Shown: positions 1,580 through 31,124 of the stretch, piece by piece
Numbering within the stretch: position 1 is the first letter of the stretch
Layout of the letters: every line of letters starts with the position of its first letter
Translations under genes and position numbers: made by a program
The notes under the pieces: generated by a model
The model's input: only the letters and a program-made list of their open reading frames with translations
What the model was told of the DNA's origin: nothing
Databases searched by the model: none
Source of the DNA: Pontibacterium sinense
GTDB taxonomy: Bacteria; Pseudomonadota; Gammaproteobacteria; Pseudomonadales; Balneatricaceae
Direction: 5' to 3'
NCBI RefSeq assembly: GCF_015209595.1
Contig: NZ_JADEYS010000011.1
Span: forward strand, 62,001 to 126,000
Length of the DNA stretch: 64,000 bases

Positions 1580-1620
1580 AAAAAAAAGCCCGACACCGGA
1601 CCAGGAATCCAGTATCGGGC
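1580..1620 (-). terminator. Leader intrinsic terminator of nasA (attenuator)
   Basis: Read on the minus strand, a 13-bp stem (GCCCGATACTGGA with TCCGGTGTCGGGC, including G-U pairs) is followed by eight U residues. It ends one base before the nasA ribosome site. A terminator in front of a start codon is the hallmark of ANTAR-protein antitermination in nas leaders. Confidence 0.9.
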
Positions 1621-1654
1621 GACATTGCCCAGCAACTATAAAAACGTCTTTGCT
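1617..1654 (-). promoter_or_regulatory. NasT/ANTAR target hairpins in the nasA leader
   Basis: Hairpin P2 (1630-1617) has a GGGC/GCCC stem with hexaloop AATGTC; its 3' arm is the first four bases of the terminator stem, so the two structures exclude each other. Upstream, hexaloop AAAGAC (1651-1646) is held by a weak 3-bp stem (one G-U) and may be P1. Both loops have A at position 1 and G at position 4, the known ANTAR-RNA rule. P2 is convincing; P1 is weaker. Confidence 0.75.
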
Positions 1655-1701
1655 AACTAAAAATGAAGTTCGAGGAGCTCGACACCTCATGACATGGATA
1701 C

Positions 1702-1718
1702 TGCAAGTGGTGTGCCAA
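1702..1718 (-). promoter_or_regulatory. Sigma-54 promoter of nasA
   Basis: TGGCAC (1717-1712), five bases, then TTGCA (1706-1702), with exactly ten bases between GG and GC. This is a near-perfect -24/-12 element. Transcription would begin near 1691 and give a leader of about 120 nt. Confidence 0.88.
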
Positions 1719-1799
1719 TAGCGTTTTCATTCGCGGCATATTTATTGCTTTACCTTTATCCGAGCCAACTTATCTGGCACTAAAAAGGTTATGTAGTAG

Positions 1800-2414
1800 A
1801 TGAAAGATTCACGTTCACTCGATGTCCTGATAGTCGATGACGAGCCCACACGCGCAGATGCACTCTTTGAAGCCCTCAATGCTTTGGGTCACAAAGTCGT
1901 CTGCCACCTGTCCGATTCCAGCGGTTTGTGTGATCAGGTCAGCGAGCGTAGTCCGGACATTGTGATTATCGATATGGATTCACCCAATCGAGATACGCTG
2001 GAAAGCATGGCAGCGATGAGCCAGAGCAACCCACGCCCCATTGTCTTCTTTGCAGAAAAGGCCAATGACCGTGACAGTATCTCTGCGGCGATCAATGCAG
2101 GCGTTAGCGCCTATATCGCAGATGGTCTGCAAACGGATCGGGTAAAAGCCATCATGGATACGGCCATTGCCCAGTTCGATGCTTTTCATTCACTACGGAC
2201 CGAACTGGAAAAAGCCAAAATCCAGCTATCAGAACGCAAAGTGGTCGAAAAGGCCAAAGGCATGTTGATGAAGCATCAAGGCTGCGATGAAGAGCAGGCC
2301 TACAAAACCCTGCGTAAACTGGCGATGGATCGAAGCCAGAAACTGGTAGAAGTGGCACAGAGTGTCATCGACATTCTGGAACTCACCGGCCTGCCCAAAA
2401 CAGGCAAGCGGTAA
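1800..2414 (+). CDS. nasT: NasT, ANTAR-domain response regulator / transcription antiterminator
   Basis: RNA-binding antiterminator for nitrate assimilation genes. Residues about 7-125 form a receiver-like domain with the acidic pair D13-D14 and a candidate phospho-acceptor D58 (IIDMD). Residues about 140-195 form the ANTAR helical bundle (AKGMLMKHQGCDEEQAYKTL then LRKLAMDRSQKLVEVA). At 204 aa it has the usual NasT length. In characterised NasS-NasT pairs, nitrate binding to NasS frees NasT to bind two-hairpin leaders and stop termination. Matching leaders lie before nasA, nrtA, narK and the nirB operon here. nasS follows 19 bases after the stop, so the two are co-transcribed. The ribosome site is modest (AAAAAGG about ten bases upstream). 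Confidence 0.95.
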   Translation: MKDSRSLDVLIVDDEPTRADALFEALNALGHKVVCHLSDSSGLCDQVSERSPDIVIIDMDSPNRDTLESMAAMSQSNPRPIVFFAEKANDRDSISAAINAGVSAYIADGLQTDRVKAIMDTAIAQFDAFHSLRTELEKAKIQLSERKVVEKAKGMLMKHQGCDEEQAYKTLRKLAMDRSQKLVEVAQSVIDILELTGLPKTGKR

Positions 2415-2433
2415 GCAAGAGGAATTACGAAGT

Positions 2434-3471
2434 ATGAGTATTGCAGCACCCGAAAAAACAGCATTAAAACTAGGTTTTGTTCCTCTGCTGGATTGCGCAC
2501 CGCTGGTTATCGCCCGTGAAAAAGGCTTCTTTCAAAACGAAGGACTCAACGTTGTTTTATCCCGAGAATCCAGTTGGGCCAACATCCGCGACAAGGTGAG
2601 CTTTGGTCTCTTGGACGGTGCTCAAATGCTGTCACCGATGCCGCTGGCATCCACGCTTGGTCTGGGTAGCCAGTCCACACCGATGATCACGTCACTGGCA
2701 TTGAGCATGAACGGCAATGCCGTCACCTTATCCGCCGAACTATACAGGGCACTCAGCCCGCAACTACGAGACCGCCCCAACGCAGCAGAAGTTGGTAATG
2801 CCCTGAAACAGTGGATTGCATCCGTGCGCACTAAGCCCGTTTTTGCGACCGTGTTTCCATATTCCTGCCAACACTATCAATTGCGTTACTGGTTAACCGC
2901 CTCCGGTATCGATCCGGATCAGGATGTGACACTCATTGCCGTCCCGCCAACCAAGATGGTCAGTACCATGCGCGATCACCTGATCGATGGGTATTGTGCA
3001 GGGGAACCCTGGAATACGTTGGCAGAATCAGGAGCGGTCGGAAAAGTGGCCGTCACCGGCTATCAGATCTGGTCTGATTCAATAGAGAAGGTATTTGCCG
3101 TCACGCAACGCTGGGCGGATAGCCATCCCAATACCCATACTGCACTGATTCGGGCACTGGTCGCGGCATGTGAATGGCTCAGCCACTCCTGCAACCATGC
3201 GGAAGCACTGGATCTGCTGCGCCTGCCTCCCTACCTTGATCAGAGTGTCATTCCACTCTGTCAGACCAGTGAAACACATCCGATCATGCAATCATTCTAT
3301 GGCTCTGACGTGAACCTACCGTCACTGAGTCATGCCCACCTGATGCTGGAACAGATGGAGCGCTGGGGACAATGGAAAGGCGGTGATCGCACGCAGATAG
3401 CCCAGCAGGTCTATCGACCGGATCTGTACGCTGAAGCATTAGCACAAGCACCATCACAACAGCTTGCTTAG
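2434..3471 (+). CDS. nasS: NasS, cytoplasmic nitrate sensor (NrtA/CmpA family)
   Basis: Periplasmic-binding-protein fold of the NrtA/CmpA type, but with no signal peptide, which fits the cytosolic nitrate sensor that holds NasT inactive without nitrate. It shares family blocks with the NrtA encoded at 10348: KLGFVPLLDCAPLVIAREKG, ANIRDKVSFGLLDGAQML and IDGYCAGEPWNTLAES. The start at 2434 has AAGAGGAA upstream; a longer in-frame reading would overlap nasT and is less likely. The product is 345 aa. It is paired with nasT in one operon. Assignment as sensor rather than transporter component rests on the missing signal peptide and its partner. Confidence 0.93.
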   Translation: MSIAAPEKTALKLGFVPLLDCAPLVIAREKGFFQNEGLNVVLSRESSWANIRDKVSFGLLDGAQMLSPMPLASTLGLGSQSTPMITSLALSMNGNAVTLSAELYRALSPQLRDRPNAAEVGNALKQWIASVRTKPVFATVFPYSCQHYQLRYWLTASGIDPDQDVTLIAVPPTKMVSTMRDHLIDGYCAGEPWNTLAESGAVGKVAVTGYQIWSDSIEKVFAVTQRWADSHPNTHTALIRALVAACEWLSHSCNHAEALDLLRLPPYLDQSVIPLCQTSETHPIMQSFYGSDVNLPSLSHAHLMLEQMERWGQWKGGDRTQIAQQVYRPDLYAEALAQAPSQQLA

Positions 3472-3618
3472 GCCTGTATGAGAGATAAATCCGTCGGAGG
3501 GATTGATACAAAGTGGATGAGAAATCACAAAACTGATATTCGTCAATTTCCCGACTGACCTACTTGGTTATTATCGATCTCGCTCTCAACAACAAATTAT
3601 TGGCTAGCGAGGTGTTTT

Positions 3619-3732
3619 ATGAGTTCATGTTGTGGTGTGTGTGGTGGCCAGGATGCGGAAGAAGTGAAAAAACAGGAACAGGCTGAAGAAGCCAAATCGC
3701 AAGAACAAACTGAACAGACCACGGAAGAATAA
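3619..3732 (+). CDS. Small Cys-rich acidic peptide (37 aa), unknown function
   Basis: A short reading frame with a good ribosome site (GAGG at 3609-3612, six bases before ATG). The product starts MSSCCGVCGGQD, with three cysteines in a CCxxC arrangement, followed by a Glu/Gln/Lys-rich tail ending QTTEE. I do not recognise a named family. The cysteine cluster could bind metal or be redox active. It lies 147 bases after nasS, and a 9-bp inverted repeat follows its stop. The strong ribosome site and biased composition suggest a real gene. Confidence 0.6.
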   Translation: MSSCCGVCGGQDAEEVKKQEQAEEAKSQEQTEQTTEE

Positions 3733-3746
3733 CCAATGGTTATCGA

Positions 3747-3780
3747 TCAGGCGGGAATCTGTCCTCCCCTCCCCGCCTGA
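3747..3780. terminator. Inverted repeat, possible bidirectional terminator
   Basis: TCAGGCGGG (3747-3755) and CCCGCCTGA (3772-3780) form a perfect 9-bp stem between the small peptide gene and ybiT. There is no U-tract on either side, so termination is only likely from position. Confidence 0.45.
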
Positions 3781-3827
3781 CTCAATCTCACCTAGGCCCG
3801 TTTCCGGACCCGGTGATCTTATCTTTC

Positions 3828-5432
3828 TCAGGCAACTTTTGCCGCAGCCACCTGACTTGCCAGATACTCTTCGTACGTACCCTGGAAGTCGATCAGCTTC
3901 TGATCTTTGATCTCAACCACACGGGTTGCCAGTGAGGAGACAAACTCGCGGTCATGGCTGACAAAAATCAGCGTGCCATCATACCCTTCCAACGCCCGGT
4001 TCAGGCCTTCAATGGACTCCATATCCAAGTGGTTGGTCGGCTCATCCATGATCAGCACGTTGGTGTTCATCATCATCAGCTTGCCAAACAGCAGTCGGTT
4101 TTTCTCTCCACCTGAGCAGACTTTTGCTTTCTTGTTAATGTCGTCCGCCGTGAACAACAAACGCCCCAGCATGCCACGTACCGCCAGATCGTCGTGCTTC
4201 GGCTGACGCCACTGAGCCATCCACTCGAACAGATTCAGATCGCAGTCGAAGTCTTCAGTGCTGTCCTGAGGACAGTAACCAATCATGGCATTTTCAGCCC
4301 ACTTAACATCACCGGACTGCGCGCTGATCTCATTCATCAGGCAACGCAGGAACGTGGTTTTACCGACACCGTTTTCACCAATGACAGCCAGTTTCGCACC
4401 CGCTTCCAAAATCAGGTTACCGCCACTGAACAGCGGTTCATCATCGTAACCGTGACCAACATTTTCCAGCACCAACGCCTGACGGTGCAGCTTTTTCTCT
4501 TGTTTCAGACGGATATACGGCGTCTGGCGGCTGGACGCTACGACCTCTTCCAGCTGAATTTTCTCCATCTTACGCGCACGGGAAGTTGCCTGTTTTGCTT
4601 TAGATGCGTTCGCAGAGAAGCGGTTTACAAACTGCTGCAACTCTTCCAGCTCTGCACTCTTCTTAGCGTTTTCGCTATGCAGCTGTTCCTGAATCAGAGA
4701 CGATGCCGCCATAAAGTCTTCGTAGTTACCCGGATAGATACGCAGGTCACCGTAATCGATATCGGCCATATGCGTACATACGGAGTTCAGGAAGTGGCGG
4801 TCATGCGAAATGATGATCATGGTGCACTTGCGCTGATTCAGAACCGTGCCCAACCAGTTGATGGTGTGAATATCCAGGTTGTTGGTCGGCTCATCGAGCA
4901 GCAAGATATCAGGATTGGCGAACAATGCCTGTGCCAGCAAGACACGCAGCTTCCAGCCCGGCGCAACCTGACTCATCAGGCCAAAGTGATACTCTTCTTC
5001 AATACCCGCCTGCAACAAGATCTCTCCGGCGCGGCTTTCGGCACTGTAGCCATCCATTTCAGCGAATTCAGTTTCAAGGTGTGCAACCCGCATCCCCTCT
5101 TCTTCCGACATTTCCGGCAAAGAGTAGATACGCTCACGTTCCTGCTTAACCTTCCACAGTTCCGCGTCACCCATGATCACCGCATCAACCACGCTGTATT
5201 CTTCAAACGCGAACTGATCCTGACTCAGCGTACCCACCTTATATCCAGGCGTGATAGACACGTTGCCGGAGGTTGGCTTCAGTTCACCGCTCAGAATTTT
5301 CATAAAGGTCGACTTACCGCAACCGTTCGCTCCGATCAGGCCGTAGCGATTGCCGTTGCCAAATTTTGCGGAGATATTTTCAAACAATGGCGCAGGGCCA
5401 AACTGCATGGTGATGTTTGCGGTGGTAATCAA
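3828..5432 (-). CDS. ybiT: ABC-F family ATPase YbiT
   Basis: Soluble ABC-F protein with two ATPase domains in one chain and no membrane segments; this family acts on ribosomes during translation. The Walker A motifs are GANGCGKST and GENGVGKTT, the second signature is CSGGEKNRL, and Walker B segments are [13 protein letters not shown] and [12 protein letters not shown]. The linker between the domains is charged and helical. The protein is 534 aa and matches E. coli YbiT closely along its length, including the N-terminal pattern of eight residues before MQFG. That alignment supports the unusual TTG start at 5432, which has AGGA upstream. It is transcribed alone. Confidence 0.93.
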
Positions 5433-6534: not shown

Positions 6535-6588
6535 CAAATTAAGGAAAGGGCTGGCATAGGAGATCACAACACACATCCAGCCTTATAA

Positions 6589-6617
6589 CCGGCTGCAGCA
6601 AGGATAGCTGCAGCCGG
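6589..6617. terminator. Bidirectional terminator hairpin
   Basis: CCGGCTGCAGC and GCTGCAGCCGG form a perfect 11-bp stem with a 7-base loop between two convergent genes. No U-tract follows in either direction, so the terminator role is inferred. Confidence 0.6.
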
Positions 6618-6631
6618 CCGGGATCGGGTAT

Positions 6632-7770: not shown

Positions 7771-7782
7771 CCGATCCTCCGA

Positions 7783-10155: not shown

Positions 10156-10171
10156 TGGCACGCCTCCTGCT
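10156..10171 (+). promoter_or_regulatory. Sigma-54 promoter of nrtABC
   Basis: TGGCAC (10156-10161), GCCTC spacer, CTGCT (10167-10171), with ten bases between GG and GC. Predicted start near 10182 leaves a leader of about 165 nt. A possible NtrC site, TGCGCCAAAACGATGC at 10032-10047, lies upstream but is degenerate. Confidence 0.82.
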
Positions 10172-10189
10172 ACCTCCACGACATCAAGT

Positions 10190-10281
10190 GCACCAATGGC
10201 GGTGCCAGATAAATAACCGGACAAGTACACGCTGACGTGTACTGAACACACAACCGGAACAGCATCAGGCAAAGGCGTCTG
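10190..10281 (+). promoter_or_regulatory. NasT/ANTAR target hairpins in the nrtA leader
   Basis: P1 is a 5-bp stem GCACC/GGTGC with hexaloop AATGGC (10190-10205). P2 is CAGGC/GTCTG with hexaloop AAAGGC (10266-10281), overlapping the 5' arm of the terminator. Between them, AGTACACG and CGTGTACT form an 8-bp spacer hairpin. Both hexaloops have A1 and G4. Confidence 0.8.
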
Positions 10282-10320
10282 TTCTCCCAGTCAATACTGG
10301 TGCGGAACGACGTCTTTTTT
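10271..10320 (+). terminator. Leader intrinsic terminator of nrtABC (attenuator)
   Basis: AAAGGCGTC (10271-10279) pairs with GACGTCTTT (10309-10317). Inner stems GTTC/GAAC and CCAGT/ACTGG extend it, and the hairpin runs into a T-rich stretch to 10325. It ends before the nrtA ribosome site, so read-through needs antitermination. Confidence 0.85.
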
Positions 10321-10347: not shown

Positions 10348-11727
10348 ATGTTCAAGAAATCACACTCCCTGTTAAGTCGTGTCATCAGCACGACGGTATT
10401 GGCGGCTAGTCTGGCTACAGCACCTGCATGGGCTGCAATCGGCGAACCGGAAAAGGAAGACCTGAAGTTCGGCTTTATCAAGCTGACTGACATGGCACCA
10501 CTGGCCATTGCTTATGAGAAGGGTTACTTCGAGGATGAAGGTCTGTATGTGCAACTGGAAGCGCAGGCAAACTGGAAGGTATTGCTGGACCGTGTGATTG
10601 ATGGACAACTTGACGGCGCGCACATGCTCGCCGGGCAGCCACTGGGCGCCACCATCGGTTTTGGTACAAAAGCCGACATCATTACCGCCTTCAGCATGGA
10701 CCTGAACGGCAACGCGATTACCGTATCGAACGACATCTGGGATCAGATGAAGCAATACATCCCCAACGGCCCGGACGGCAAGCCGGTACATCCAATCAAA
10801 GCGGATGCATTAAAACCCGTTATCGAGAAGTACAAAGACGAAGGTAAGCCGTTCAACATGGGGATGGTGTTCCCGGTCTCCACCCACAACTATGAACTGC
10901 GTTACTGGCTGGCGGCCGGTGGTATCAACCCGGGTTATTACGCGCCTCACAAAGGGGACACCTCCGGTCAGATCGATGCCGACGCACTGCTCTCTGTTAC
11001 CCCTCCACCTCAGATGCCAGCCACGATGGAAGCCGGCACCATCTACGGTTACTGCGTGGGTGAACCCTGGAACCAGCAGGCCGTATTCAAAGGCATCGGC
11101 GTACCAGTGGTAACCGATTATGAAATCTGGAAAAACAACCCGGAGAAAGTGTTCGGCGTATCCAAACACTGGGCTGAAGAATATCCGAACACTCACCTGC
11201 GTGTCGTGAAAGCGATGATCCGTGCCGCCAAGTGGCTGGATGACAAAAACAACGCCAACCGTCCGGAAGCGGTGAAAATTCTGTCCCAATCCGAATATGT
11301 AGGGGCCGATTACGATGTCATCGCCAACTCCATGACTGGTACCTTCGAATACGAAAAGGGCGACAAGCGTGACGTACCTGATTTCAACGTATTCTTCCGC
11401 CACAACGCAACATACCCGTACTACTCCGATGCGATCTGGTATCTGACACAGATGCGCCGCTGGGGTCAGATTGCTGATCCAAAACCGGACAGCTGGTACA
11501 TGGATATTGCCAAAAAAGTGTACCGTCCCGACATCTACCGCCAGGCGGCTGAAGAGCTGATCGCCGATGGTGTGATCAGTGCAGCAGAGTTCCCGGATTT
11601 CGCCACTGAAGACGGCTTCAAAGCACCGCAAACACACTTCATCGACAACATTACGTACGACGGCTCTAAGCCAAATGAGTATCTGAAGAAGTTTGAAATT
11701 GGTCTGAAAGACGATCAGAAAATCTGA
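10348..11727 (+). CDS. nrtA: Nitrate ABC transporter, periplasmic substrate-binding protein
   Basis: A 459-aa NrtA/NasF family binding protein that captures nitrate (and probably nitrite) for the NrtBC permease. It begins with a signal peptide (charged MFKKSH, hydrophobic core, cleavage near AWA). Family blocks include [35 protein letters not shown] and [13 protein letters not shown], similar to NasS but exported. The ATG at 10348 is chosen because GGAG ends six bases before it; an ATG at 10342 would touch the ribosome site. It is first in nrtABC, behind a sigma-54 promoter and an antitermination leader. Confidence 0.94.
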
Positions 11728-11787
11728 TGACCTGCTCCCTGCTGGCAAGGTATCGCCAGTGGGGAGCGTTTTGCGGGAGTATCCATT

Positions 11788-12795
11788 ATGAGTCATTCAT
11801 CTACAAAATCATCTAATCCACTGGCAGCTCTGCTATCTGTCTTCCAGTGCGAAAACCCGATTCAGTCTGCGTTGCAGAGCTTAAAACAGCTCATTTTGCC
11901 TTTGATTGGCATGCTGGTCTTTTTGCTGATCTGGGATATAGGTGCCAAGAATATTCACACCTCTCTGGGTACGTTTCCCGGCCCTGCACAAGTTTACGAA
12001 CAAACCGTTGGCCTGATCGACGACCATCAGGCTGAACGCCAAAAAGAGGTCGCTTTCTACGAGCGACAGGAGAAACGCAACGCGAAGAAACTGGAAAAGA
12101 ACCCGGACGCCAAGATCAAGGTCCGCCCCTATACCGGTAAGCCAACGTTTTTCGATCAGATCGGCACCAGCCTGATCACCGTACTTGCGGGCTTCTTTTT
12201 CGCGTCACTGATCGCGATCCCGGCAGGCATTATGATCGGTTTAAATCAGCCTCTCTATTCCGCGTTGAATCCGCTGATTCAGCTGTTCAAACCCGTATCA
12301 CCACTGGCATGGCTGCCACTGGTCACCATGGTGGTCAGCGCAGTGTACGTCAGCAAAGATCCGATGTTTGCCAAATCTTTTATCACCTCGCTGGTCACTG
12401 TATCGCTGTGCTGTTTGTGGCCAACGCTACTGAACACCGCTGTCGGTGTTTCCGGTATCAGTAAAGATCTTCAGAACGTCTCCCAGGTATTACGCCTCTC
12501 CTTCTTTACTCACGTGGTGAAGATTGTACTGCCATCGTCCATTCCGATGATGTTTACCGGCCTGCGTTTGTCGCTGGGTATTGCATGGATGGTACTAATC
12601 GCTGCAGAGATGCTGGCGCAGAACCCGGGGCTCGGCAAATTCGTCTGGGATGAGTTCCAGAACGGTAGCTCCAACTCACTGGGGCGCATCATGGTTGCCG
12701 TACTGGTGATTGGCCTGATTGGCTTCCTGCTGGACCGCATCATGCTGCTGATCCAGAAGAAAGTGTCTTGGGATAAAACAGCCATTCTGCGCTAA
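11788..12795 (+). CDS. nrtB: Nitrate ABC transporter, permease
   Basis: A 335-aa inner-membrane permease of the NrtB/SsuC type that forms the nitrate channel with NrtA and the ATPase. An N-terminal hydrophobic helix (about residues 35-52) is followed by an unusual charged, Lys/Glu-rich loop (about 70-115). Five or more membrane segments follow, with a permease-like ATPase-contact loop near VSQVLRLSFFTHVVKIVLP. The gene starts 61 bases after nrtA with a GGGAG ribosome site. The charged insertion is a feature of the NrtB group rather than an error. Confidence 0.93.
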   Translation: MSHSSTKSSNPLAALLSVFQCENPIQSALQSLKQLILPLIGMLVFLLIWDIGAKNIHTSLGTFPGPAQVYEQTVGLIDDHQAERQKEVAFYERQEKRNAKKLEKNPDAKIKVRPYTGKPTFFDQIGTSLITVLAGFFFASLIAIPAGIMIGLNQPLYSALNPLIQLFKPVSPLAWLPLVTMVVSAVYVSKDPMFAKSFITSLVTVSLCCLWPTLLNTAVGVSGISKDLQNVSQVLRLSFFTHVVKIVLPSSIPMMFTGLRLSLGIAWMVLIAAEMLAQNPGLGKFVWDEFQNGSSNSLGRIMVAVLVIGLIGFLLDRIMLLIQKKVSWDKTAILR

Positions 12796-12819
12796 TTCAA
12801 CCTCATAAGGAGAAGACTG

Positions 12820-13737
12820 ATGACAACAACACATCTCGAACTGACCGGGGTTGATATTGAGTTCCCAACCCCAGACGGCCCGTTTAAGGCGCTGGACAAT
12901 GTGAATCTGAAGATCAAAAAAGGCGAATACATCTCCCTGATTGGTCACTCCGGTTGCGGTAAATCCACCGTCCTCAATATTGTCGCCGGTTTATATCAGG
13001 CCACTAAAGGCGGCGTATTGCTCGACGGCAAAGAGGTCAACGAACCCGGCCCTGAGCGTGCAGTGGTGTTCCAGAACCACTCTCTGCTGCCATGGCTGAC
13101 CGCTTACGAAAACGTTGAACTGGCGGTGAATCAGGTCTTTAAGGGCAAGAAAAGCAAAGCCGAGATGAAAGACTGGATTGAACACAATCTTTCACTGGTT
13201 CATATGACCCATGCGATGCATAAACGCCCGGAAGAGATCTCCGGTGGTATGAAACAGCGCGTGGGGATCGCCCGTGCACTGGCGATGGAACCTAAAGTGC
13301 TGCTGATGGATGAACCCTTTGGTGCACTGGACGCCCTCACCCGTGCACACTTGCAGGATTCATTGATGGAGATTCAGAACGAGTTGAACAACACCGTGAT
13401 CATGATCACCCACGATGTGGATGAAGCGGTGCTGCTCTCTGACCGTATTGTGATGATGACCAATGGCCCTGAAGCCACGGTGGGTGAGATTCTGGAGATC
13501 GACCTGCCCCGTCCGCGTAACCGCATCGCACTGGCCGATGACCCACAGTACAACCAGTACCGCGCAGCCGTACTGAGCTTCCTGTACGAAAAACAGCGCA
13601 AGCCGGACACCGGCGAAACCAGTCAAAAACCGGCAGAAGAAGAAAAGCTGGCACACAACCTGCAATCAGAAGAGACAAAAGGTGAAGTTTCAATGACCGA
13701 AACCACCGCCGACAGTGAAAAAGTTAAAGCGGCCTAA
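12820..13737 (+). CDS. nrtC: Nitrate ABC transporter, ATP-binding protein
   Basis: A 305-aa ABC ATPase driving nitrate uptake. Walker A is GHSGCGKST, the signature is ISGGMKQRVG, Walker B is VLLMDEPFGALD, and the H-loop is TMITHD-like (MITHDVDEAVL). After the ATPase domain (residues about 1-260) there is an acidic tail rich in Glu, Lys and Thr with no recognised domain. It lacks the NrtA-like C-terminal domain of cyanobacterial NrtC and so resembles NrtD/NasD in architecture. It starts 24 bases after nrtB with AAGGAGA upstream. Confidence 0.93.
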   Translation: MTTTHLELTGVDIEFPTPDGPFKALDNVNLKIKKGEYISLIGHSGCGKSTVLNIVAGLYQATKGGVLLDGKEVNEPGPERAVVFQNHSLLPWLTAYENVELAVNQVFKGKKSKAEMKDWIEHNLSLVHMTHAMHKRPEEISGGMKQRVGIARALAMEPKVLLMDEPFGALDALTRAHLQDSLMEIQNELNNTVIMITHDVDEAVLLSDRIVMMTNGPEATVGEILEIDLPRPRNRIALADDPQYNQYRAAVLSFLYEKQRKPDTGETSQKPAEEEKLAHNLQSEETKGEVSMTETTADSEKVKAA

Positions 13738-13777: not shown

Positions 13778-13867
13778 GGCAAAGCAGCCATTTCCAAACC
13801 GGTGCAAAGGCGCACCACATTGGCTCAACCTCTGCTTTGCCTGCACAGATTTGAACAAAGGCGTTCA
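13778..13867 (+). promoter_or_regulatory. NasT/ANTAR target hairpins in the narK leader
   Basis: P1 is GGTGC/GCACC with hexaloop AAAGGC (13801-13816). P2 is TGAAC/GTTCA with the same hexaloop AAAGGC (13852-13867) and overlaps the terminator 5' arm. A third possible loop, AAAGCA with a GGC/GCC stem, lies at 13778-13789. GGCAAAGCAG (13778-13787) can also pair perfectly with CTGCTTTGCC (13832-13841), enclosing P1 in a long-range stem. No convincing separate promoter was found. Confidence 0.8.
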
Positions 13868-13914
13868 TGCCCCGCTTCTGAATTGGTGCGGGCTGAACGC
13901 CTTTTTGCGTTTTT
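13857..13914 (+). terminator. Intrinsic terminator between nrtC and narK (attenuator)
   Basis: AAAGGCGTTCA (13857-13867) and TGAACGCCTTT (13894-13904) form an 11-bp perfect stem with an inner CCCGC/GCGGG extension, followed by T-rich sequence. It separates nrtABC from narK unless P2 forms. Confidence 0.9.
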
Positions 13915-13929
13915 ATAGAGGGCAATCAC

Positions 13930-15399
13930 ATGCACGACAGCGGAAAACTCAACCTGCTTTCCTTTACGGGAAAGATGAAGATCCTTCATTTCAGTTGGAT
14001 CGCATTCTTCATCACGTTCTTTGTTTGGTTTAACCATGCGCCTTTGCTGGGTTCTATCGCTGAATCCCTTGGCCTGACCAAATCCGAAATCAAAACCCTG
14101 CTGATCCTGAACGTAGCCCTCACCATCCCGGCCCGCATCATCGTTGGTATGCTGACCGATAAATTTGGTCCGCGTATTACCTATGCGGCGCTGCTCTTCT
14201 TCGCCAGCATCCCCTGCTTTATGTTTGCGCTGTCCAGCAACTTTATGGAAGCGGCGATCTCCCGCTTCCTGCTGGGTTTCATCGGTGCCGGTTTTGTCAT
14301 TGGTATCCGTATGGTGAGCGAGTGGTTCCCAGCGAATGAACTGGGTACGGCAGAAGGTATCTACGGCGGCTGGGGCAACTTTGGTTCTGCGGCGGCAGCT
14401 ATGTTGCTGCCAACCCTCGCCATTGTATTTGGTGGCGAAGATGGCTGGCGTTATGCGGTGGGCCTGACCGGTGCAATCTGTCTGGTCTTCAGCTTTATCT
14501 GGTACAAAAACGTAACCGATACACCAAAAGGCTCCACCTACTTCAAACCGAAAAAGATTGGCGGTCTGGAAGTGACCAGCAAATCTGACTTCGTCTTCCT
14601 GCTGGTGATGAAGATTCCTATGTACGCTGCGCTGGCACTGCTGACCTGGAAGCTGTCTCCGGCAGGCGTTTCCATGCTGTCCGATGCTGTCGCACTGGGT
14701 ATCTACATCGCACTGGCGGCTATTTTTATCTACGACTGCTACAGCGCATATGACGTAAACCGCGAGATCTTCGACAAGCCTGTACCGGAAGTTCACCAGT
14801 ACAAGTTCAAGCAGGTCGCGGTATTGAATGTACTCTACTTCGCAACCTTTGGTTCTGAACTGGCCGTGGTGTCTATGCTGCCACTGTTCTTCGCCGATGT
14901 GTTCGAACTGGACATGGTCTATGCCGGTCTGCTGGCGTCTGCTTATGCCTTTATGAACCTGATGTCCCGTCCGGGTGGTGGCTGGATCAGTGACCGCTTC
15001 GGTCGTAAGAAAACCCTGCTGATTCTGACCGCCGGTCTGGCCGTGGGTTACGCGCTGATGTCGATGATCGATAGTACCTGGTCACTGATTCTGGCAGTGC
15101 TCACCGCCATGGCATGCTCGTTCTTCGTACAGGCCGGTGAAGGTGCGGTTTTTGCGGTGGTGCCTCTAATCAAACGCCGGCTGACTGGCCAGATTGCAGG
15201 GATGACCGGTGCCTACGGTAATGTCGGTGCAGTGTTCTACCTGACAATTTTGTCTATGGTGAGTTATGAGATCTTCTTCAGTGTCATTGCCTGTACGGCG
15301 GTTCTTGGCTTCATCGCCCTGCTGTTCCTGGAAGAACCTAAAGGCCACATGGCGGAAGTGAAAGAAGACGGTACCGTCGAGCTGATCGAGGTGTCTTAA
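13930..15399 (+). CDS. narK: MFS nitrate/nitrite transporter (NNP family)
   Basis: A 489-aa major facilitator protein with twelve predicted membrane helices. The NNP signature glycines are visible in [13 protein letters not shown], with [20 protein letters not shown] just before it and the MFS loop [10 protein letters not shown] later. It is likely a nitrate importer for assimilation, giving a second uptake route beside NrtABC. AGAGGG precedes the ATG at 13930. In Pseudomonas the equivalent gene (often named nasA) is next to a PP2C-kinase gene and nirB, which the next gene matches. Import rather than exchange is inferred from context. Confidence 0.92.
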
Positions 15400-15461
15400 C
15401 CGGCACCCGCTTGTTGGGAGTCGCTGCGCTCACCCCAACCTACATCGCTCTTGTAGGTTGT

Positions 15462-15580
15462 TGCTGGTTCCCACGGTCCTCCGTGGGAACCCATACGGTG
15501 GGTTCCGGCTAATCCATCGTCCCGTATCACTGAGACATATAAAGCGATATGCATTCCCACGCGGGAGCATGGGAACGAGG
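15462..15580. repeat. REP-like palindromic repeat cluster
   Basis: GGTTCCCACGG and CCGTGGGAACC (15466-15491) form a perfect 11-bp hairpin with loop TCCT. GGAACCCA/TGGGTTCC partly overlaps its 3' arm. About 60 bases on, TTCCCACGCGGGAGCATGGG resembles the dispersed palindrome found between genes in many gammaproteobacteria. The cluster fills the narK to PP2C-kinase gap. Confidence 0.6.
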
Positions 15581-15616
15581 TATCCGCAGGACCTGACTGA
15601 CACTGCCACGAGAATC

Positions 15617-17365
15617 ATGATGACCAGTAAACAGCCACCTCAAAAACAACTCAGCATCCGCTTTGGCGGCCGCTCCACTGCCGGTGTAAAAGCGGTTAAT
15701 CAGGATGCCTTTGCCGCACAACAGCCTGACGGCAGCGAGCTGGAGTTTAAGGGTGTGGCGGCGGCCATCGCCGATGGTGTCAGCAGTTGTGCGGATTCTC
15801 AAATCGCCAGTCAAACCTGCGTCACCGGGTTTATTCAGGACTATTTCAGTACCCCCCACAGCTGGAGTGTGAAGCACTCTGTGTCGCGGGTCCTGACCGG
15901 CCTGAACAACTGGCTGCATCAGGAAAATATTCAGGCACGACGTGAGAAAGACAGCATGCTTTGCACCTTCTCCGCGCTGGTCATTAAATCCAATACCCTG
16001 CACTGGTTCCACGTGGGGGACTCCCGCATCTACCGTTTTCACAACGGTGAGCTAGAGCTGCTTACCAAAGACCACACCCGCCGTGAAGCAGGACGTAACT
16101 ATCTGTCCCGCGCCATGGGGGGTGATCAACACCTCGAAGTTGATTACAACTCGGCGGTGCTGGAGGAAGGCGCATTGCTTCTGCTCACCACCGATGGGGT
16201 GCACGAATTCCTGAAACCGGCCCAGATCAGCAGCACGCTGACCGATGCCGGAGACGATCTGGAAAAAGCCGCCGCCGATCTGGTGCAACAGGCTGAAGAA
16301 CAAGGCAGCGACGATAACCTCACCGCCCTGCTCATCTCAGTGGATCAACTGCCTCAGGAAACGCTCGACGAAAGTCATCACCGGGTGACCCAGCTACCGA
16401 TCCCCCCGGTACTGGCGGCAGGTAATAAGATTGACGGTTACGAAGTGCTGGATGTGATCTTCAGCGGCACCCGCAGTCATATGTATCAGGTGAAGGATCT
16501 CGAAACCGGTCAGCACTATGTGCTCAAAGCACCCTCGATGAACTTCAGTGAAGATACCGTCTATCTGGATGGGTTTATTCGCGAGGAATGGGTCGGCCAG
16601 AAGGTCAACCATCCGAACGTGATGAAGACCTATAAACCCACTCACGCCAAACGTTTCCTTTACTATCTGGGTGAACATATCGAGGGGATGACCCTGCGAG
16701 ACTGGATGAACGACCATCCCAACCCGGGACTGGATGAAGTCCGTCGACTGGCCTCGCAGATTATCCAGGGACTGCGCGCGTTTCAGCGTGCAGATATGTT
16801 GCATCAGGATCTGAAACCGGAAAATATCATGATTGATATGGACGGTCGGGTGAAGATTCTGGACTTCGGCACCGTACGAATCGCCGGTATCGAAGAGATG
16901 AGTTCACCACTGGATAAGTCGGTGCCTCAGGGTTCGGTCAACTATGTTGCACCTGAGTACCTGATGGCCGAAATGGGAACCTTCCGCTCTGATATGTTCT
17001 CACTGGCGGTCATTGTGTATGAGATGTTGACCGGTCAGCTGCCGTTTGACGAGCGCAATATCAAGCAGGTAGAGATCAATCACTACTCTGAGTTCAGCTA
17101 CACCCCGGCAATCCAGCACCGCCGGGATCTCCCGCTCTGGATGGAGGGCTGTTTGCGAAAAGCCCTGCAACCTAACCCCATCCATCGCTACGATGCCTAT
17201 TCCGAATTTATTCAGGATCTGACCGTTCCCAACTCGCATCTGGAAGCCAAAGTACGGCACCAACCCCTGCTGGAGAAAAACCCCACCCGTGTCTGGCAAG
17301 GGATCGCCGCGCTGCTGTTGCTGCTCAACCTGGTACAGCTGATGCTTCAGGATACGGTGGGTTAA
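15617..17365 (+). CDS. Bifunctional PP2C phosphatase / Ser-Thr protein kinase, membrane-anchored
   Basis: A 582-aa fusion. Residues about 10-245 form a PP2C phosphatase with acidic metal-binding motifs NQDAF, ADGVSS, HVGDSR, TTDGV and GSDDNLT. Residues about 275-540 form a protein kinase: glycine-loop region FSGTRSHMYQ, catalytic lysine in YVLKAP, catalytic loop HQDLKPEN and LDFGTVR. The loop has Gln where most kinases have Arg, so it is a non-RD kinase. A C-terminal hydrophobic segment anchors it in the inner membrane. The same fusion sits between the nitrate transporter and nirB in Pseudomonas, suggesting post-translational control of nitrate uptake, but no target is known. The start is 15617 or the adjacent ATG; the ribosome site is weak. 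Confidence 0.88.
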   Translation: MMTSKQPPQKQLSIRFGGRSTAGVKAVNQDAFAAQQPDGSELEFKGVAAAIADGVSSCADSQIASQTCVTGFIQDYFSTPHSWSVKHSVSRVLTGLNNWLHQENIQARREKDSMLCTFSALVIKSNTLHWFHVGDSRIYRFHNGELELLTKDHTRREAGRNYLSRAMGGDQHLEVDYNSAVLEEGALLLLTTDGVHEFLKPAQISSTLTDAGDDLEKAAADLVQQAEEQGSDDNLTALLISVDQLPQETLDESHHRVTQLPIPPVLAAGNKIDGYEVLDVIFSGTRSHMYQVKDLETGQHYVLKAPSMNFSEDTVYLDGFIREEWVGQKVNHPNVMKTYKPTHAKRFLYYLGEHIEGMTLRDWMNDHPNPGLDEVRRLASQIIQGLRAFQRADMLHQDLKPENIMIDMDGRVKILDFGTVRIAGIEEMSSPLDKSVPQGSVNYVAPEYLMAEMGTFRSDMFSLAVIVYEMLTGQLPFDERNIKQVEINHYSEFSYTPAIQHRRDLPLWMEGCLRKALQPNPIHRYDAYSEFIQDLTVPNSHLEAKVRHQPLLEKNPTRVWQGIAALLLLLNLVQLMLQDTVG

Positions 17366-27159: not shown

Positions 27160-27316
27160 GATTTCCTTCTTTTCGCGGTGGATGGTATCAGCTTCGCCAT
27201 CCAGCCACCTGGATGCTCCAAGGGACTTTTCATCACGGGTTCTGCCAACTACACCCAGTGCCGCCAACGACGAGGGGTGGAATAAAAAGTTACGTTTCCG
27301 GACAGGGTAGTGCATG

Positions 27317-27380
27317 GCGTATAACTAGGCGTGCGTGGCAAGGGACGTTGCCTTGATGCCTAAAGCGGAAATAGTTAAAC
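27317..27380. other. attC-like sequence near the hydrolase gene
   Basis: A 64-base partly self-complementary stretch is bounded by GTATAAC (27319-27325) and GTTAAAC (27374-27380), resembling integron attC end motifs, with TAGGC/GCCTA inside. The gene layout around it is not a clear cassette array and no integron integrase is present. Tentative. Confidence 0.25.
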
Positions 27381-27448
27381 GCTACTTACATTGCCAATGG
27401 CGTAATGGAGGCAACCAGCCATAACATCCAACTGCTATCCTTGCGACC

Positions 27449-28378
27449 TCAACAACGTTTTCGCTTCCGCACCAGTTTTGGAAAGCGGGTTGGAAAGGAC
27501 TTCATTTCCAACATGCAGAGACCGGCGATACTGATTGCTACACCCAACATCTGGGTTGCGTCCAAGGTTTCTCCTAATAGCAAACACGCAAACAACAAGG
27601 TGATGGCAGGTCCAGACAGGGAGACCAAGCTAGCACGACGAGCTCCGCACCGTTTGATGGCTTCATACAGTAGAAAAAAAGGGATCACCGTGCAGACTGT
27701 GGCGATCAACACACTCCACCCAGCCCCCTCTGGGGTGTACTCCATGGTAAAACCCCTACCGCTACCCGCCAGAAACAATACCACTAATATCAACGTGACG
27801 GTGTTGCTCGCGGCAGTAAAGCGACTGGAACTAAGTTGCTTCAAAATCATCTGACTGTAGATCAGATAGAACGCATAGGTAACAGATGCCGCCAACGCCC
27901 AAACGATCCCCTTAAGGGTCTCACTAGACAGCGGGGTATCCCCCTGAGGCGACACGACCAACAGCAGGCCGCTATAGCTCACGGTAAAGGCAACCAAATG
28001 TTGTCCGGTGGGTAAACGCCGTTCCATTAGTGCAGCGATCAGCACCACAAACAGTGGAAATGTAAACAAAATCAATCGTGATAATCCGGCATCGATATAA
28101 GACAAAGCCGTGAAATCAAAATAAGTAGCGAGGAAAAACAAGGTCCCGGTCCCCGCGCAGTGTCCCCATTGTCTACCATCAATACCTCCTGTTGCCCCAT
28201 ATACAACGCGCGCACCGATCCAAAATAATGGAACGGCGATGGCAAAACGTACCAGCATCAGAAAATCCACGTCAGTATCAGCGGCAAAAACGAACTTGGC
28301 TAGTATTCCCTTGAACGACAGCGCGATTGTCGCCATCAGGACGAACAGAAAGCTAGGGTCATTGGGCTTGAGGTGCAT
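27449..28378 (-). CDS. EamA/DMT-family membrane transporter
   Basis: A 309-aa inner-membrane protein with ten predicted helices in two EamA repeats, the usual size for the drug/metabolite transporter superfamily. The end of the second repeat reads LSGPAITLLFACLLLGETLD, a typical EamA block. Such proteins export amino acids or other small metabolites; the substrate is unknown. It is divergent from a LysR regulator gene, with GATAT...ATATC inverted repeats between, a classic regulator-target arrangement. Confidence 0.88.
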   Translation of the reverse strand: MHLKPNDPSFLFVLMATIALSFKGILAKFVFAADTDVDFLMLVRFAIAVPLFWIGARVVYGATGGIDGRQWGHCAGTGTLFFLATYFDFTALSYIDAGLSRLILFTFPLFVVLIAALMERRLPTGQHLVAFTVSYSGLLLVVSPQGDTPLSSETLKGIVWALAASVTYAFYLIYSQMILKQLSSSRFTAASNTVTLILVVLFLAGSGRGFTMEYTPEGAGWSVLIATVCTVIPFFLLYEAIKRCGARRASLVSLSGPAITLLFACLLLGETLDATQMLGVAISIAGLCMLEMKSFPTRFPKLVRKRKRC

Positions 28379-28429
28379 TGGCTCGATACCCTCTTTTGCG
28401 GTTCGGTCTGGGTATTATTGCCAAGCTGA

Positions 28430-28481
28430 GATATTAATCTATATCCTAATAATTCTTTCAGATATTAAAATTTATTATATC
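28430..28481. promoter_or_regulatory. Two LysR-type operator candidates
   Basis: GATATTAATCTATATC (28430-28445) and a 21-base dyad bounded by GATAT and ATATC (28461-28481) lie in the 111-base gap between the transporter and the LysR gene. Both share GATAT/ATATC ends, fitting a regulator dimer-of-dimers. Confidence 0.5.
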
Positions 28482-28489
28482 ATTTAAGA

Positions 28490-29401
28490 ATGGACTCTAA
28501 ACATCTACGCAGTTTTCTACATATCTCCGAACTTGGCAGCATCAGTAAGGCTGCCGAACGTCTAAATTTGACCCAACCTGCGCTCAGTCGGCAATTAAAA
28601 ATTCTGGAGGAGGAAGCCGGAATGCGCCTTCTGCAACGGACCGGACGCGGGGTCAGCCTTACCGATGCAGGGCGTTTGTTGGCACAACGGGCACAATCAG
28701 TCATCAGCGAACTGGAGAAAATTAGCAGCGAATTAGCAGCAATAAAGGGCACTGTAAGGGGAGAACTCTGCATTGGTTTTCCCCCTAGTGTCGGTCTACG
28801 ATTGGCCGGTCCGGTGGTCCAGCGGTTCCATTCCGAATATCCCGATGTACAGTTACGAGTAGAACAACTCATTTCAGGGACACTGGAACAGAAACTGCTC
28901 GCAGGACGTATCGATCTGGGTGTGTTGTTTGACGGTACCATCAGCCCTAATTTGCGCACCGAGCCACTATGGCAAGAGCAGTTGGCTGTCATTGCCCATC
29001 CGCAGATCGGACTTGATGCATACAGCTCACTCTCCCTGAAGCAGGCACTGCAACTACCGTTAATCCTCCCCAAGGCCCCTCATAACCTCCGGGACATGTT
29101 GGAGCAGCAAGCATTTCGGGAAGGTATCCCGTTGAACGTGGAGATCGAAGTGGATTCCCTGATGATCCAATTGGCGCTGGTACGTCGAAATCTTGGTTGC
29201 TCTATCATGCCAGCCGCTCTGTGCCAGACTGAGCTGTTGGCAGATATGCTTACTTCTACAGATATTGTTGATCCTGAGCTGACCCGCACTGCACTATTGG
29301 CGTGGTCTAAGGACCATCCTTTGACCACCGCTGGCCATATCATGGCTGAGATGGTGCGCGCATGTGCGGCAGATAACAAAGATGGAGAAATATTCTCCTA
29401 G
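28490..29401 (+). CDS. LysR-family transcriptional regulator
   Basis: A 303-aa LTTR. The N-terminal winged helix reads SISKAAERLNLTQPALSRQL followed by KILEEEAGMRLLQRTGRG; the effector-binding domain starts near residue 90 (GELCIGFPPSVGLRLAGPVV). It is most similar in pattern to the Nac/Cbl-like branch. It probably controls the divergent EamA transporter and itself through the GATAT repeats. No ribosome site is obvious, and the leader is very AT-rich. The inducer is unknown. Confidence 0.92.
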   Translation: MDSKHLRSFLHISELGSISKAAERLNLTQPALSRQLKILEEEAGMRLLQRTGRGVSLTDAGRLLAQRAQSVISELEKISSELAAIKGTVRGELCIGFPPSVGLRLAGPVVQRFHSEYPDVQLRVEQLISGTLEQKLLAGRIDLGVLFDGTISPNLRTEPLWQEQLAVIAHPQIGLDAYSSLSLKQALQLPLILPKAPHNLRDMLEQQAFREGIPLNVEIEVDSLMIQLALVRRNLGCSIMPAALCQTELLADMLTSTDIVDPELTRTALLAWSKDHPLTTAGHIMAEMVRACAADNKDGEIFS

Positions 29402-29524
29402 AGAGCTTTTGGATTCCGTCGCAGAATGATTGAGTGATCCATTGAATCCACAGCCGGAAGCGGACATTTGAATCGACGATGTTGGATAGCTTTGATCAAC
29501 CAATTGACGTCATTTACTGCCAAA

Positions 29525-30058
29525 TTATCGCTTGCGTCGATAGTGGGTCTGAACCAAAGCATCCAAATGAACCTGGGTGCTGATATGTTCAAATGCTAAT
29601 GGTTCAGCCAAAGTCCCGAAGAGCGGCACGCCTCCCCCCAGCAGTATCGGTAGTTGTGTAATGATCAACTCGTCAATCATGTCGGCATCCAGAAAGCTCT
29701 GGATAGTTTTGCCACCATCAACATATAAGTCGGTAAAACCTCTTTGATTCAGGGATTCAACAACTTCAGATAATGAGCCTGAAATTATCTCTGCTTTATC
29801 ACTATACGCCTCTGGAATAGAAGTCATTGTGTCACTAAGTACAAAGACAGGCATAGGGTAAGGCCATTCCACATCGAAGCCACATACGGTCTCAAATGTA
29901 TTTCTCCCCATAATCAAGGCATCGATTTTTTCCATAAAATCAACCCAGCCTAAATCAAGGTTATCTGGATTTGGAATACTGTGAAGCCAGCCCAATCCCC
30001 CATCTTTATCAGCAATGTAACCATCTAGGCTGGTAGCGATGTACACGATCTTCGACAT
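29525..30058 (-). CDS. Dihydrofolate-reductase-like protein (RibD C-terminal family)
   Basis: A 177-aa protein of the RibD-C/DHFR-like family (as YwjB/YyaP). Blocks are IATSLDGYIADKDGG near the start, LIMGRNTFETV and the C-terminal LYVDGGKTIQSFLDADMIDE. NADPH-dependent reductase activity is likely by fold, but the substrate is not folate-specific and remains unknown. ATG at 30058 follows AGAGGG. It is divergent from a TetR regulator with a 17-base palindrome between, so it is probably the regulated target. Confidence 0.88.
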   Translation of the reverse strand: MSKIVYIATSLDGYIADKDGGLGWLHSIPNPDNLDLGWVDFMEKIDALIMGRNTFETVCGFDVEWPYPMPVFVLSDTMTSIPEAYSDKAEIISGSLSEVVESLNQRGFTDLYVDGGKTIQSFLDADMIDELIITQLPILLGGGVPLFGTLAEPLAFEHISTQVHLDALVQTHYRRKR

Positions 30059-30138
30059 AAAACCCTCTAACAACAAAGCCTTGCAAAAACTGGAATTGGA
30101 TCAAGATGAGCTTGTATTAACTCTTTGCTCAAATTAAT

Positions 30139-30155
30139 ATTCTACAATGTAGAAT
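30139..30155. promoter_or_regulatory. TetR-family operator
   Basis: ATTCTACA-A-TGTAGAAT is a perfect 8-1-8 palindrome 24 bases before the tetR-like start and 81 bases from the divergent DHFR-like gene. Its position suits control of both. Confidence 0.75.
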
Positions 30156-30178
30156 ATATATGCTATCGAGGTTTTGTA

Positions 30179-30733
30179 ATGGCTGTCAAGGCGAGGAAAC
30201 GTGGGCGTCCTGCCCAAGATCAAAGTCAATTAACTGCCGAACTTATTGTTTTAAGTGCACGAAGGCTGATGCAGGAGAACGGTAAGGTTCCAAGTATTCG
30301 TCAGGTTTCTAGTGTTTTGGGAGTTGACCCAATGGCCATTTATCACTATTTCTCAAGTAAATCTGTACTTCTTGAGGCACTGACGATCTCGTTGATCGAG
30401 GATATCTACGATCCCAAAGAAGGTAGAAAGTGGCAAGATGAGCTGGAGCAGTTGTGTAAAAGTTACTTGGAATTGCTGAGAACGCATCCAGGACTGTTAG
30501 AGACCTTGCTATCCATAAAAGCGTTTGGGCCAGCACAGGTATTCAATCAGCGTTTAGCAATAATATTGGCTCCGCTTGAGCTTTCACAATCAGCTTTTAC
30601 TCAGGCTCAGGATCTATTAGTTGATTACATGCATGGAGTCGCTTTAGCTATTCAGTGCAATCCAGATAATTTGTCGTCGAATTGTATTGATGGCCCTCTT
30701 AGTTTGATTCGTTTAGGGCTGGAGAGTAGATGA
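30179..30733 (+). CDS. TetR-family transcriptional regulator
   Basis: A 184-aa TetR protein. The N-terminal HTH region reads GKVPSIRQVSSVLGVDPMAI then YHYFSSKSVLLEALT, with the YHYF signature of the family; a basic KARKRGRP tail precedes it. The C-terminal ligand domain resembles TetR_C. ATG at 30179 has GAGG eight bases upstream and is preferred to a longer upstream reading that would cross the operator. It probably represses itself and the divergent DHFR-like gene. Confidence 0.9.
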   Translation: MAVKARKRGRPAQDQSQLTAELIVLSARRLMQENGKVPSIRQVSSVLGVDPMAIYHYFSSKSVLLEALTISLIEDIYDPKEGRKWQDELEQLCKSYLELLRTHPGLLETLLSIKAFGPAQVFNQRLAIILAPLELSQSAFTQAQDLLVDYMHGVALAIQCNPDNLSSNCIDGPLSLIRLGLESR

Positions 30734-30875
30734 CAAATACAACAATCTAGTGATATCCGCTCTGTTGTCGAAAACCAACGATCTGTACGGCTTGGGATAG
30801 TTGTTTCTGATGTCCACTGTGTACCGAAAGCAGACCGCCCTAGTTTTTGCCCCTCATTGATACCAATTCCCCTCC

Positions 30876-30890
30876 GCACAATCTGGTGCA
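30876..30890 (+). promoter_or_regulatory. NtrC-type activator site upstream of the nirB operon
   Basis: GCACAATCTGGTGCA fits the NtrC pattern GCAC-N5-GGTGCA and lies about 155 bases upstream of the predicted start, a normal enhancer distance for sigma-54 promoters. Confidence 0.6.
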
Positions 30891-31007
30891 CCCCGCCCAA
30901 CTCCGTGCACGCTTTTAGTTCATATAAGCCCCTTCGCTATGTGCGAATACTCCTAAGACAGTACCAAAAAACAAATATACCCAACAAAAACAACATGTTA
31001 AAAAACC

Positions 31008-31023
31008 TGGCACCCTATCTGCT
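31008..31023 (+). promoter_or_regulatory. Sigma-54 promoter of the nirB operon
   Basis: TGGCAC (31008-31013), CCTAT, CTGCT (31019-31023), with ten bases between GG and GC. Predicted start is near 31034. Confidence 0.85.
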
Positions 31024-31058
31024 ATATACCGTTTAAAAATAAAATTTAGTTTTAACGA

Positions 31059-31076
31059 ATGAACAACGGCGTTCAT
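31059..31076 (+). promoter_or_regulatory. NasT/ANTAR antiterminator hairpin of the nirB operon
   Basis: ATGAAC and GTTCAT form a 6-bp stem around hexaloop AACGGC (A1, G4). The hairpin covers the first bases of the terminator 5' arm at 31069-31076, so antiterminator and terminator are mutually exclusive. No good upstream P1 hairpin was found in the short leader. Confidence 0.8.
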
Positions 31077-31124
31077 CAACCACCGGCCCTTCCCGACCGG
31101 TTGGTCGATGAGCGCTTTTTTTTT
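31069..31124 (+). terminator. Leader intrinsic terminator of the nirB operon (attenuator)
   Basis: GCGTTCATC (31069-31077) pairs with GATGAGCGC (31107-31115), with an inner ACC/CCGG-CCGG/GGT extension, then nine T residues. It precedes the first gene by 29 bases. Confidence 0.9.

Follow-up and report, generated by a model that had tools for sequence, protein, structure and literature searches.

How one nitrate-responsive regulator could serve several operons, and whether each operon presents it with the same RNA signal, is the question raised by a nitrate-assimilation locus of Pontibacterium sinense (NCBI RefSeq assembly GCF_015209595.1, contig NZ_JADEYS010000011.1, positions 62,001 to 126,000; this whole stretch of 64,000 nucleotides (nt) is called the window below, and all coordinates refer to it). 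In this marine bacterium, one RNA-binding protein appears to turn on four operons for nitrate use by cancelling an early transcription terminator in each. The presumed protein is NasT, a response regulator with an ANTAR domain encoded beside the sensor NasS, and the operons are those of nasA, nrtA, narK and nirX-nirBD (nirX being our own label). Each has a leader in which a hairpin with a six-nucleotide loop (hexaloop), here called P2, overlaps an intrinsic terminator; a second, upstream hexaloop hairpin (P1) is present at nrtA and narK and absent at nirX. Statements on published systems rest on excerpts of the papers cited.

The four composites of P2 and terminator are as follows. On the minus strand, nasA has the P2 hairpin TGGGC-AATGTC-GCCCG (1616..1631), whose 3' strand also belongs to an intrinsic terminator with a T-run (1580..1620, stem 1588-1620). 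On the plus strand, P2 is CAGGC-AAAGGC-GTCTG at nrtA (10266..10281; terminator with T-run 10274..10319), TGAAC-AAAGGC-GTTCA at narK (13852..13867; terminator with T-run 13860..13906) and ATGAAC-AACGGC-GTTCAT at nirX-nirBD (31059..31076; terminator with T-run 31067..31124), the ends of these three terminators being approximate. All four loops have A at position 1 and G at position 4, all four terminators precede the first gene, and in every leader the 3' strand of P2 can alternatively pair with the arm directly before the T-run, so that the two structures are mutually exclusive. An earlier note on this DNA had named the same four hairpin-terminator pairs and quoted their loops as AATGTC, AAAGGC, AAAGGC and AACGGC; both the pairs and the loop sequences are correct. 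A scan for AANGNC hairpins overlapping terminators, run on both strands of the window, returns four composites, with means of 0.12 and 0.05 in two sets of 60 dinucleotide shuffles (maximum 1 in each), at thresholds chosen once the four leaders were already known. Under a looser rule fixing only A1 and G4, six composites are found vs 1.4 expected (shuffle maximum 4). The leader segments also fold better than their shuffles (z -2.4 to -3.5).

Regarding conservation, 29 leaders were aligned (alignment A2), 3 from the window and 26 from 15 named relatives; the nasA rows with AATGTC or AATGCC loops were left out, and the leader model and the pair counts were built on this alignment. The P2 helix is paired in 96.6% of its cells and has a covariation score of 0.815 vs 0.311 in shuffled alignments, while the terminator helix scores 0.398 vs 0.223; in neither case did any of 500 shuffles score as high, and slid versions of both helices score lower than the true register. 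Since the two helices have one strand in common, three strands change together. These values are conditioned on pairing, as the script that found the leaders accepted only those with a P2 stem and a pairing terminator. The nirX class comprises just 16 distinct P2 sequences; of their six pairs, four vary on both strands and two never vary, and the covariation score, conditioned in the same way, was reached in 0/500 shuffles; loop positions A1, A2, G4, G5 and C6 are invariant in 16/16, the loop pattern having been part of the search. The same selection partly accounts for the AANGNC loops of 95/96 leaders in the larger collection described below. A scan that required no stem found the first four P2 pairs formed in 25/27 nirX, 20/21 narK, 22/36 nrtA and 5/12 nasA motifs. 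It covered 37 nirX, 21 narK, 47 nrtA and 34 nasA upstream regions, many of them chosen around model matches, and it met P1 or the weak nasA candidate first in the nasA regions of the window and L002, the nrtA regions of L003, L011 and L135, and the nirX regions of L020 and L026.

Is NasT the likely reader of these hairpins? The gene nasT (1800..2414, plus strand; Pfam PF00072 and PF03861) is the sole ANTAR gene found in the genome, and it lies within the leader locus. It encodes a receiver-ANTAR protein beside an NMT1-like sensor, nasS (2434..3471, plus strand; NMT1_2-family nitrate sensor, named by position and family), which is the arrangement of a NasS-NasT pair. Its nearest homologs are 98% identical in an Oceanospirillaceae metagenome-assembled genome (L002) and 92% identical in Pontibacterium granulatum (L003), and it aligns to the PDB relatives Rv1626, EutV and NasR. 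The EutV residues that contact the RNA hexaloop are named in PMC8934654; R142, K143, K147, K149, E160, Y164 and M172 of EutV are identical in NasT, in an alignment read by eye with a two-residue numbering offset. Across 57 genomes, the own one included, leader-model matches at E<=1e-3 occur in 27 and an ANTAR gene in 36, with 25 having both, 2 a match only, 11 an ANTAR gene only and 19 neither. Taken together, the single ANTAR gene, the contact residues, the covariation and the co-occurrence with ANTAR genes support the NasT/ANTAR antitermination regulon over four operons that the earlier note had put forward, and such a regulon can be regarded as well supported.

Applied to the own genome, the model recovers narK, nirX and nrtA (each at E<=1.0e-6), and its next best match is at 0.02; since the window's nasA (AATGTC) type is excluded from the model, another leader of that type could escape it. 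Of the places from E 0.02 onward, the four that were read (L196-L199) have no hexaloop composite, and a fifth leader of the formate/nitrite transporter (FNT) type is ruled out, the genome having no PF01226 gene. Three to five model matches at E<=0.01 are found in 17/56 relatives, all four same-genus genomes among them, although some are one place matched on both strands; a multi-leader regulon is therefore common near this bacterium.

The leaders differ in P1, a feature that the earlier note overlooked. In the window, canonical P1 hexaloops with 5-base-pair (bp) stems are found at nrtA (GCACC-AATGGC-GGTGC, 10190..10205, plus strand) and narK (GGTGC-AAAGGC-GCACC, 13801..13816, plus strand). A search upstream of the nirX P2 found no P1 hexaloop. 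For nasA there is a weak candidate with a 3-bp stem (AGC-AAAGAC-GTT, 1643..1654, minus strand), which among 12 nasA leaders is common to the window and L002 only.

To place these differences, leaders of the named loci and of relatives were merged into 96 unique leaders, duplicates being combined by sequence; P1 was never a requirement in any leader search. A strict P1 was defined as an AANGNC or AANGNT loop closed by C-G, with a stem of at least 3 bp, between the predicted start and P2. It is present in 14/22 narK leaders (0.39 expected in shuffles), 9/24 nrtA leaders (0.08), 3/8 FNT leaders (0.01) and 2/12 nasA leaders (0.02; both with 3-bp stems), and in 0/25 nirX leaders, the window's included (0.05). 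The small classes also have none: 0/2 for uroporphyrinogen-III methyltransferase (SUMT), 0/2 for nrtA2 and 0/1 for the chemoreceptor (MCP) leader. No strict P1 lies within 170 nt of the nirX P2 in 25/25 leaders, and loose A1/G4 hexaloops upstream of it are near chance (2/25 vs 1.1 expected). The 25 nirX leaders span ten genus labels (g1, g3, g5, g7, g8, g12, g14, g16, g21 and g36), two of them (L185, L189) coming from other families of the same order; as they are related, the P1 counts are not independent events. Since 15/24 nrtA leaders in the window's family are without strict P1, its loss is not confined to nirX. In wider samples of the class (32/274 genomes with matches; 28 new loci read, 2 without composite) and of the order (57/293 genomes with matches, part of which were read; 53 loci read, 6 without composite), P1 is found in 30/37 nrtA vs 6/16 nirB/nirX leaders (Fisher p 0.003, an indicative value only, as related leaders count as independent). 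These counts keep duplicates: L242 and L276 are one leader, and the tandem units of L254 make two nirX rows. P1 is thus frequent overall, and leaders without it cluster at nirB operons: all nirB-operon leaders seen in the window's family lack it, whereas elsewhere only some do. The idea that leaders make up for a missing P1 through a more stable P2 or a less stable terminator was dropped, since neither the energies of P2 and terminator nor their spacing differ between P1-less and P1 leaders; only T-run length does (p 0.05).

As for the make-up of the collection, 71/86 places at E<=0.01 outside the own genome were read; 6 of the remaining 15 duplicate a place on the opposite strand. Before the 96 were counted, L151 and a spurious row of L172 were removed, and L184, L190 and L196-L199 had no composite. 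Class was assigned by position for L006 (both strands) and for L015, L018 and L019 (minus strand); the nirX class takes in rows whose best match is nirB (L146, L168, L182). The labels FNT, SUMT, MCP and nrtA2, and L137 as narK, are our own, from translations or position.

All four leaders of the window are preceded by sigma-54-like sites, likewise overlooked by the earlier note. These are consensus matches at nasA (TGGCACACCACTTGCA, 1702..1717, minus strand; predicted start 60 nt before P2), nrtA (10156..10171, plus strand), narK (TGGCACACAACCTGCA, 13649..13664, plus strand, inside the 3' end of nrtC) and nirX-nirBD (TGGCACCCTATCTGCT, 31008..31023, plus strand). A -24/-12 site of this kind, by an ad hoc score, occurs in 90/96 leaders vs 5.0 expected. 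The narK start predicted from the 13649 site lies 177 nt before the narK P2; a local narK promoter at 13821-13836 was set aside, and the 13649 site preferred, because the former is weaker and placed between P1 and P2. Because of that site in the 3' end of nrtC, the narK leader is not plainly operon-internal, a detail that differs from the earlier note, which counts an internal operon leader among the four. The nirX start is predicted at about 31034, only 25 nt before P2. In the nirX leaders that have such a site (24), this distance is 13 to 110 nt (median 44), and the 25-nt segment of the window, like those of L139 (25 nt) and L171 (13 nt), is predicted to be unstructured.

The best explanation as a whole, and in our judgment a highly probable one, is sigma-54 initiation combined with NasT/P2 antitermination at the four operons. 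Transcription of each operon would begin at a sigma-54 promoter that answers to general nitrogen control; without nitrate, NasS would hold NasT and transcription would end at the leader terminator. Nitrate or nitrite on NasS would release NasT, which would then bind the A1/G4 hexaloop of P2, and P2 formation would remove the 5' arm of the terminator and so permit read-through. The sigma-54-like sites fit general nitrogen control at initiation with NasT control at elongation, and the introduction of PMC5424462 mentions an Ntr-plus-NasR control like this two-layer arrangement. At nrtA and narK, the upstream P1 may recruit NasT first, following the model proposed for eut in PMC8934654, in which P1 recruits the ANTAR dimer before P2 forms. 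At nirX-nirBD, and probably nasA, NasT would act on P2 alone. For nirX, direct binding of NasT to P2 is most likely; with so short a predicted 5' leader, P2 would emerge soon after promoter escape. Either NasT alone would be sufficient at P2 in such P1-less leaders, or more NasT would be needed, with later induction. The leader sequences, their mutually exclusive structures, covariation, conservation and co-occurrence with ANTAR genes are observed; that NasT binds the leaders, that they respond to nitrate, that the promoters are active and that P1-less leaders function is inferred.

Several observations weigh against this explanation. The promoters are consensus matches only. Pairs changed on both sides are no better represented than in shuffles (as high in 344/500 for P2 and 91/500 for the terminator), and the pair types of the terminator and of the nirX P2 are matched by 270/500 and 469/500 shuffles, respectively. 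The nasA leaders are poorly covered, 22/34 of their upstream regions having yielded no motif in the stem-free scan, and several nrtA and nasA P2 stems are just 3 bp. The co-occurrence is imperfect: 11/36 ANTAR-bearing genomes have no model match at E<=1e-3, three of which (G013, G026, G042) have matches at E 0.001-0.003 (L157, L194, L195) that prove to be composites on reading, and two genomes with a match (G020, G053) have no ANTAR gene, their matches showing no P2 composite on reading. Lastly, the P1-less state is not universal, as 6/16 nirB/nirX leaders outside the family have P1 and a P1-like hexaloop, strong by eye, is present in the Halomonadaceae nirX regions L014, L016, L020, L021, L022 and L026.

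How the P1-less leaders should be understood is where the alternatives diverge. Both hairpins are held necessary in the literature, yet strict P1 is found in 0/25 nirX leaders, so that these look like natural single-hexaloop leaders. That the nirX-nirBD and most nasA leaders are natural P2-only targets beside the dual nrtA and narK leaders, with P1 tuning rather than permitting antitermination, has about an even chance of being right. Alternatively, a nirX P1 could exist upstream of another start site, or with a divergent loop outside the patterns used, which we consider unlikely. The nirX start sites are indeed predictions, a hairpin of some kind stands upstream in several nirX leaders of Neptuniibacter, and in L158 P2 is preceded by CAATGGCG, closed by one pair only; however, the loops of the upstream nirX hairpins vary from species to species, the 170 nt before P2 hold no strict P1 and loose hexaloops only near chance, and the short 5' segments of the window, L139 and L171 are predicted to be unstructured. 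Somewhat less likely still, the nirX and nasA leaders could be constitutive attenuators or leftover terminators, nrtA and narK alone being regulated by NasT. The published models, in which antitermination needs P1 and P2 (PMC3369931, PMC8934654), and the chance-level P1 of nirX would agree with this; but in nirX leaders the two strands of P2 pair and covary, although the 5' one takes no part in the terminator, and the loop is invariant at five positions even allowing for the loop pattern in the search. Besides, the title of Romeo 2012, in the reference list of PMC6759348, speaks of antitermination within the P. aeruginosa nirBD-PA1779-cobA operon.

A further possibility, that the terminators answer to another signal (a riboswitch, ribosome-coupled attenuation or Rho control), seems very improbable: nothing specific favors it, the leaders co-occur with ANTAR genes, carry A1/G4 hexaloops and have nasTS neighbors, and no Rfam family matched in the window at gathering thresholds.

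The genes behind the leaders are consistent in theme. On the minus strand, nasA (1..1568; open frame MNSHTTCPYCGVGCGVEV...) encodes an assimilatory nitrate reductase and continues past the left end of the window, its name being based on context and on homologs adjoining nasT in relatives. The nitrate ABC transporter genes nrtABC (10348..13737, plus strand) were named by families and context. They are followed on the same strand by narK (13930..15399), a NarK-family nitrate/nitrite transporter gene (TIGR00886, 334 bits vs a cut-off of 312), and by a PP2C-phosphatase/Ser-Thr-kinase fusion (15458..17365), homologs of which also lie 3' of narK in relatives, e.g., L003, L005 and L012. The fourth operon, also on the plus strand, begins with nirX (31154..32419), whose 421-amino-acid product is a FAD/NAD reductase resembling the N-terminal half of NirB (it aligns to the first half of TIGR02374 with a score below the cut-off). 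It continues with nirB (32433..34928; TIGR02374 1115 bits, NF011565 1364 bits; start codon inferred) and a small nirD-like frame read by eye (34954..35301), after which a terminator-like site is found (35333-35356). A tiny frame rich in cysteine and glutamate (MSSCCGVCGGQDAEEV...), also read by eye, lies 3' of nasS at 3619-3732.

Further leaders were seen in relatives, the genes behind them being identified by eye. P2-terminator leaders precede formate/nitrite-transporter-like genes in L132, L136, L144, L152, L160, L164, L178 and L183, with a sigma-54-like site in 7/8, and uroporphyrinogen-III methyltransferase-like genes in L155 (617) and L170 (572); this enzyme provides siroheme for nitrite reductase. 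In L127 (513), a sigma-54-like site, a P2 hexaloop and a terminator lie before a chemoreceptor-like gene, which suggests a NasT-controlled taxis receptor. In L219 (1507) a dual-hexaloop leader precedes a protein whose N-terminus resembles a nitrate sensor, and in L208 (1507) and L220 (1507) such leaders precede outer-membrane-porin-like proteins. Three A1/G4 hexaloops, two P1-like and P2, are found in L187, L202, L209, L211, L213, L280 and others, and in L254 nirX is preceded by two successive P2-terminator units (535 and 656, minus strand), perhaps tandem attenuators.

With regard to known systems, the coverage of one locus by four leaders does not go beyond what has been described, contrary to the earlier note: four eut leaders lie inside one locus and D. 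acetoxidans (Desulfotomaculum acetoxidans) has 13 leaders in six units (Ramesh 2012, PMC3369931), to which the 17/56 multi-match relatives can be added. Leader matches at nitrate/nitrite transporters and nitrite reductase are also given in PMC3369931, and in B. diazoefficiens NasT hairpins were predicted at nirA, narK, bjgb and coxS (Sanchez 2019, PMC6759348). Multi-leader ANTAR regulons being already known, the notable part here is the conserved absence of P1 at nirX-nirBD. In the 2022 EutV structure paper (PMC8934654), the minimal binding motif was redefined as one hexaloop, two being kept for antitermination, and bioinformatic work on single-hexaloop sites was called for; within the literature searched, the phrase "single hexaloop" occurs in that paper only. 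The two earlier covariance searches considered (PMC3369931, PMC8164766) demanded both hairpins, and therefore P2-only leaders were probably missed and ANTAR regulons undercounted. No P1-less NasT leader was recognized from the titles and abstract openings surveyed, and priority for such leaders cannot be claimed firmly. Both kinds of leader occur here in a single genome that has a single ANTAR protein, and P1-less leaders of the nirX kind are found under ten genus labels; the role of P1 is therefore directly testable.

The closest parallels share part of this design each. The NasS-NasT systems of Paracoccus denitrificans and Bradyrhizobium diazoefficiens (PMC3795266, PMC5424462, PMC6759348) have the same regulator pair and several predicted targets including narK and nirA; in Paracoccus, nitrate-triggered release and binding to the nasA leader RNA have been shown (PMC3795266). 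They differ in belonging to Alphaproteobacteria. Antitermination at a nirBD operon is shared with P. aeruginosa, judging by the title of Romeo 2012. NasR-nasF of Klebsiella oxytoca (PMC3369936) is likewise a nitrate-responsive ANTAR antitermination system with P1, P2 and terminator, but there a one-component NIT-ANTAR protein, NasR, acts on the nasF leader, in place of NasS-NasT and four leaders. The eut system of Enterococcus faecalis (PMC3369931; Walshe 2022, PMC8934654) has in common with the window one ANTAR response regulator, several leaders in one locus and an A1/G4 P2 hexaloop overlapping the terminator arm. Its EutV/EutW input is ethanolamine and phosphorylation, whereas here it would be NasS and nitrate, and the eut leaders carry both P1 and P2, whereas the nirX leader of the window carries P2 only.

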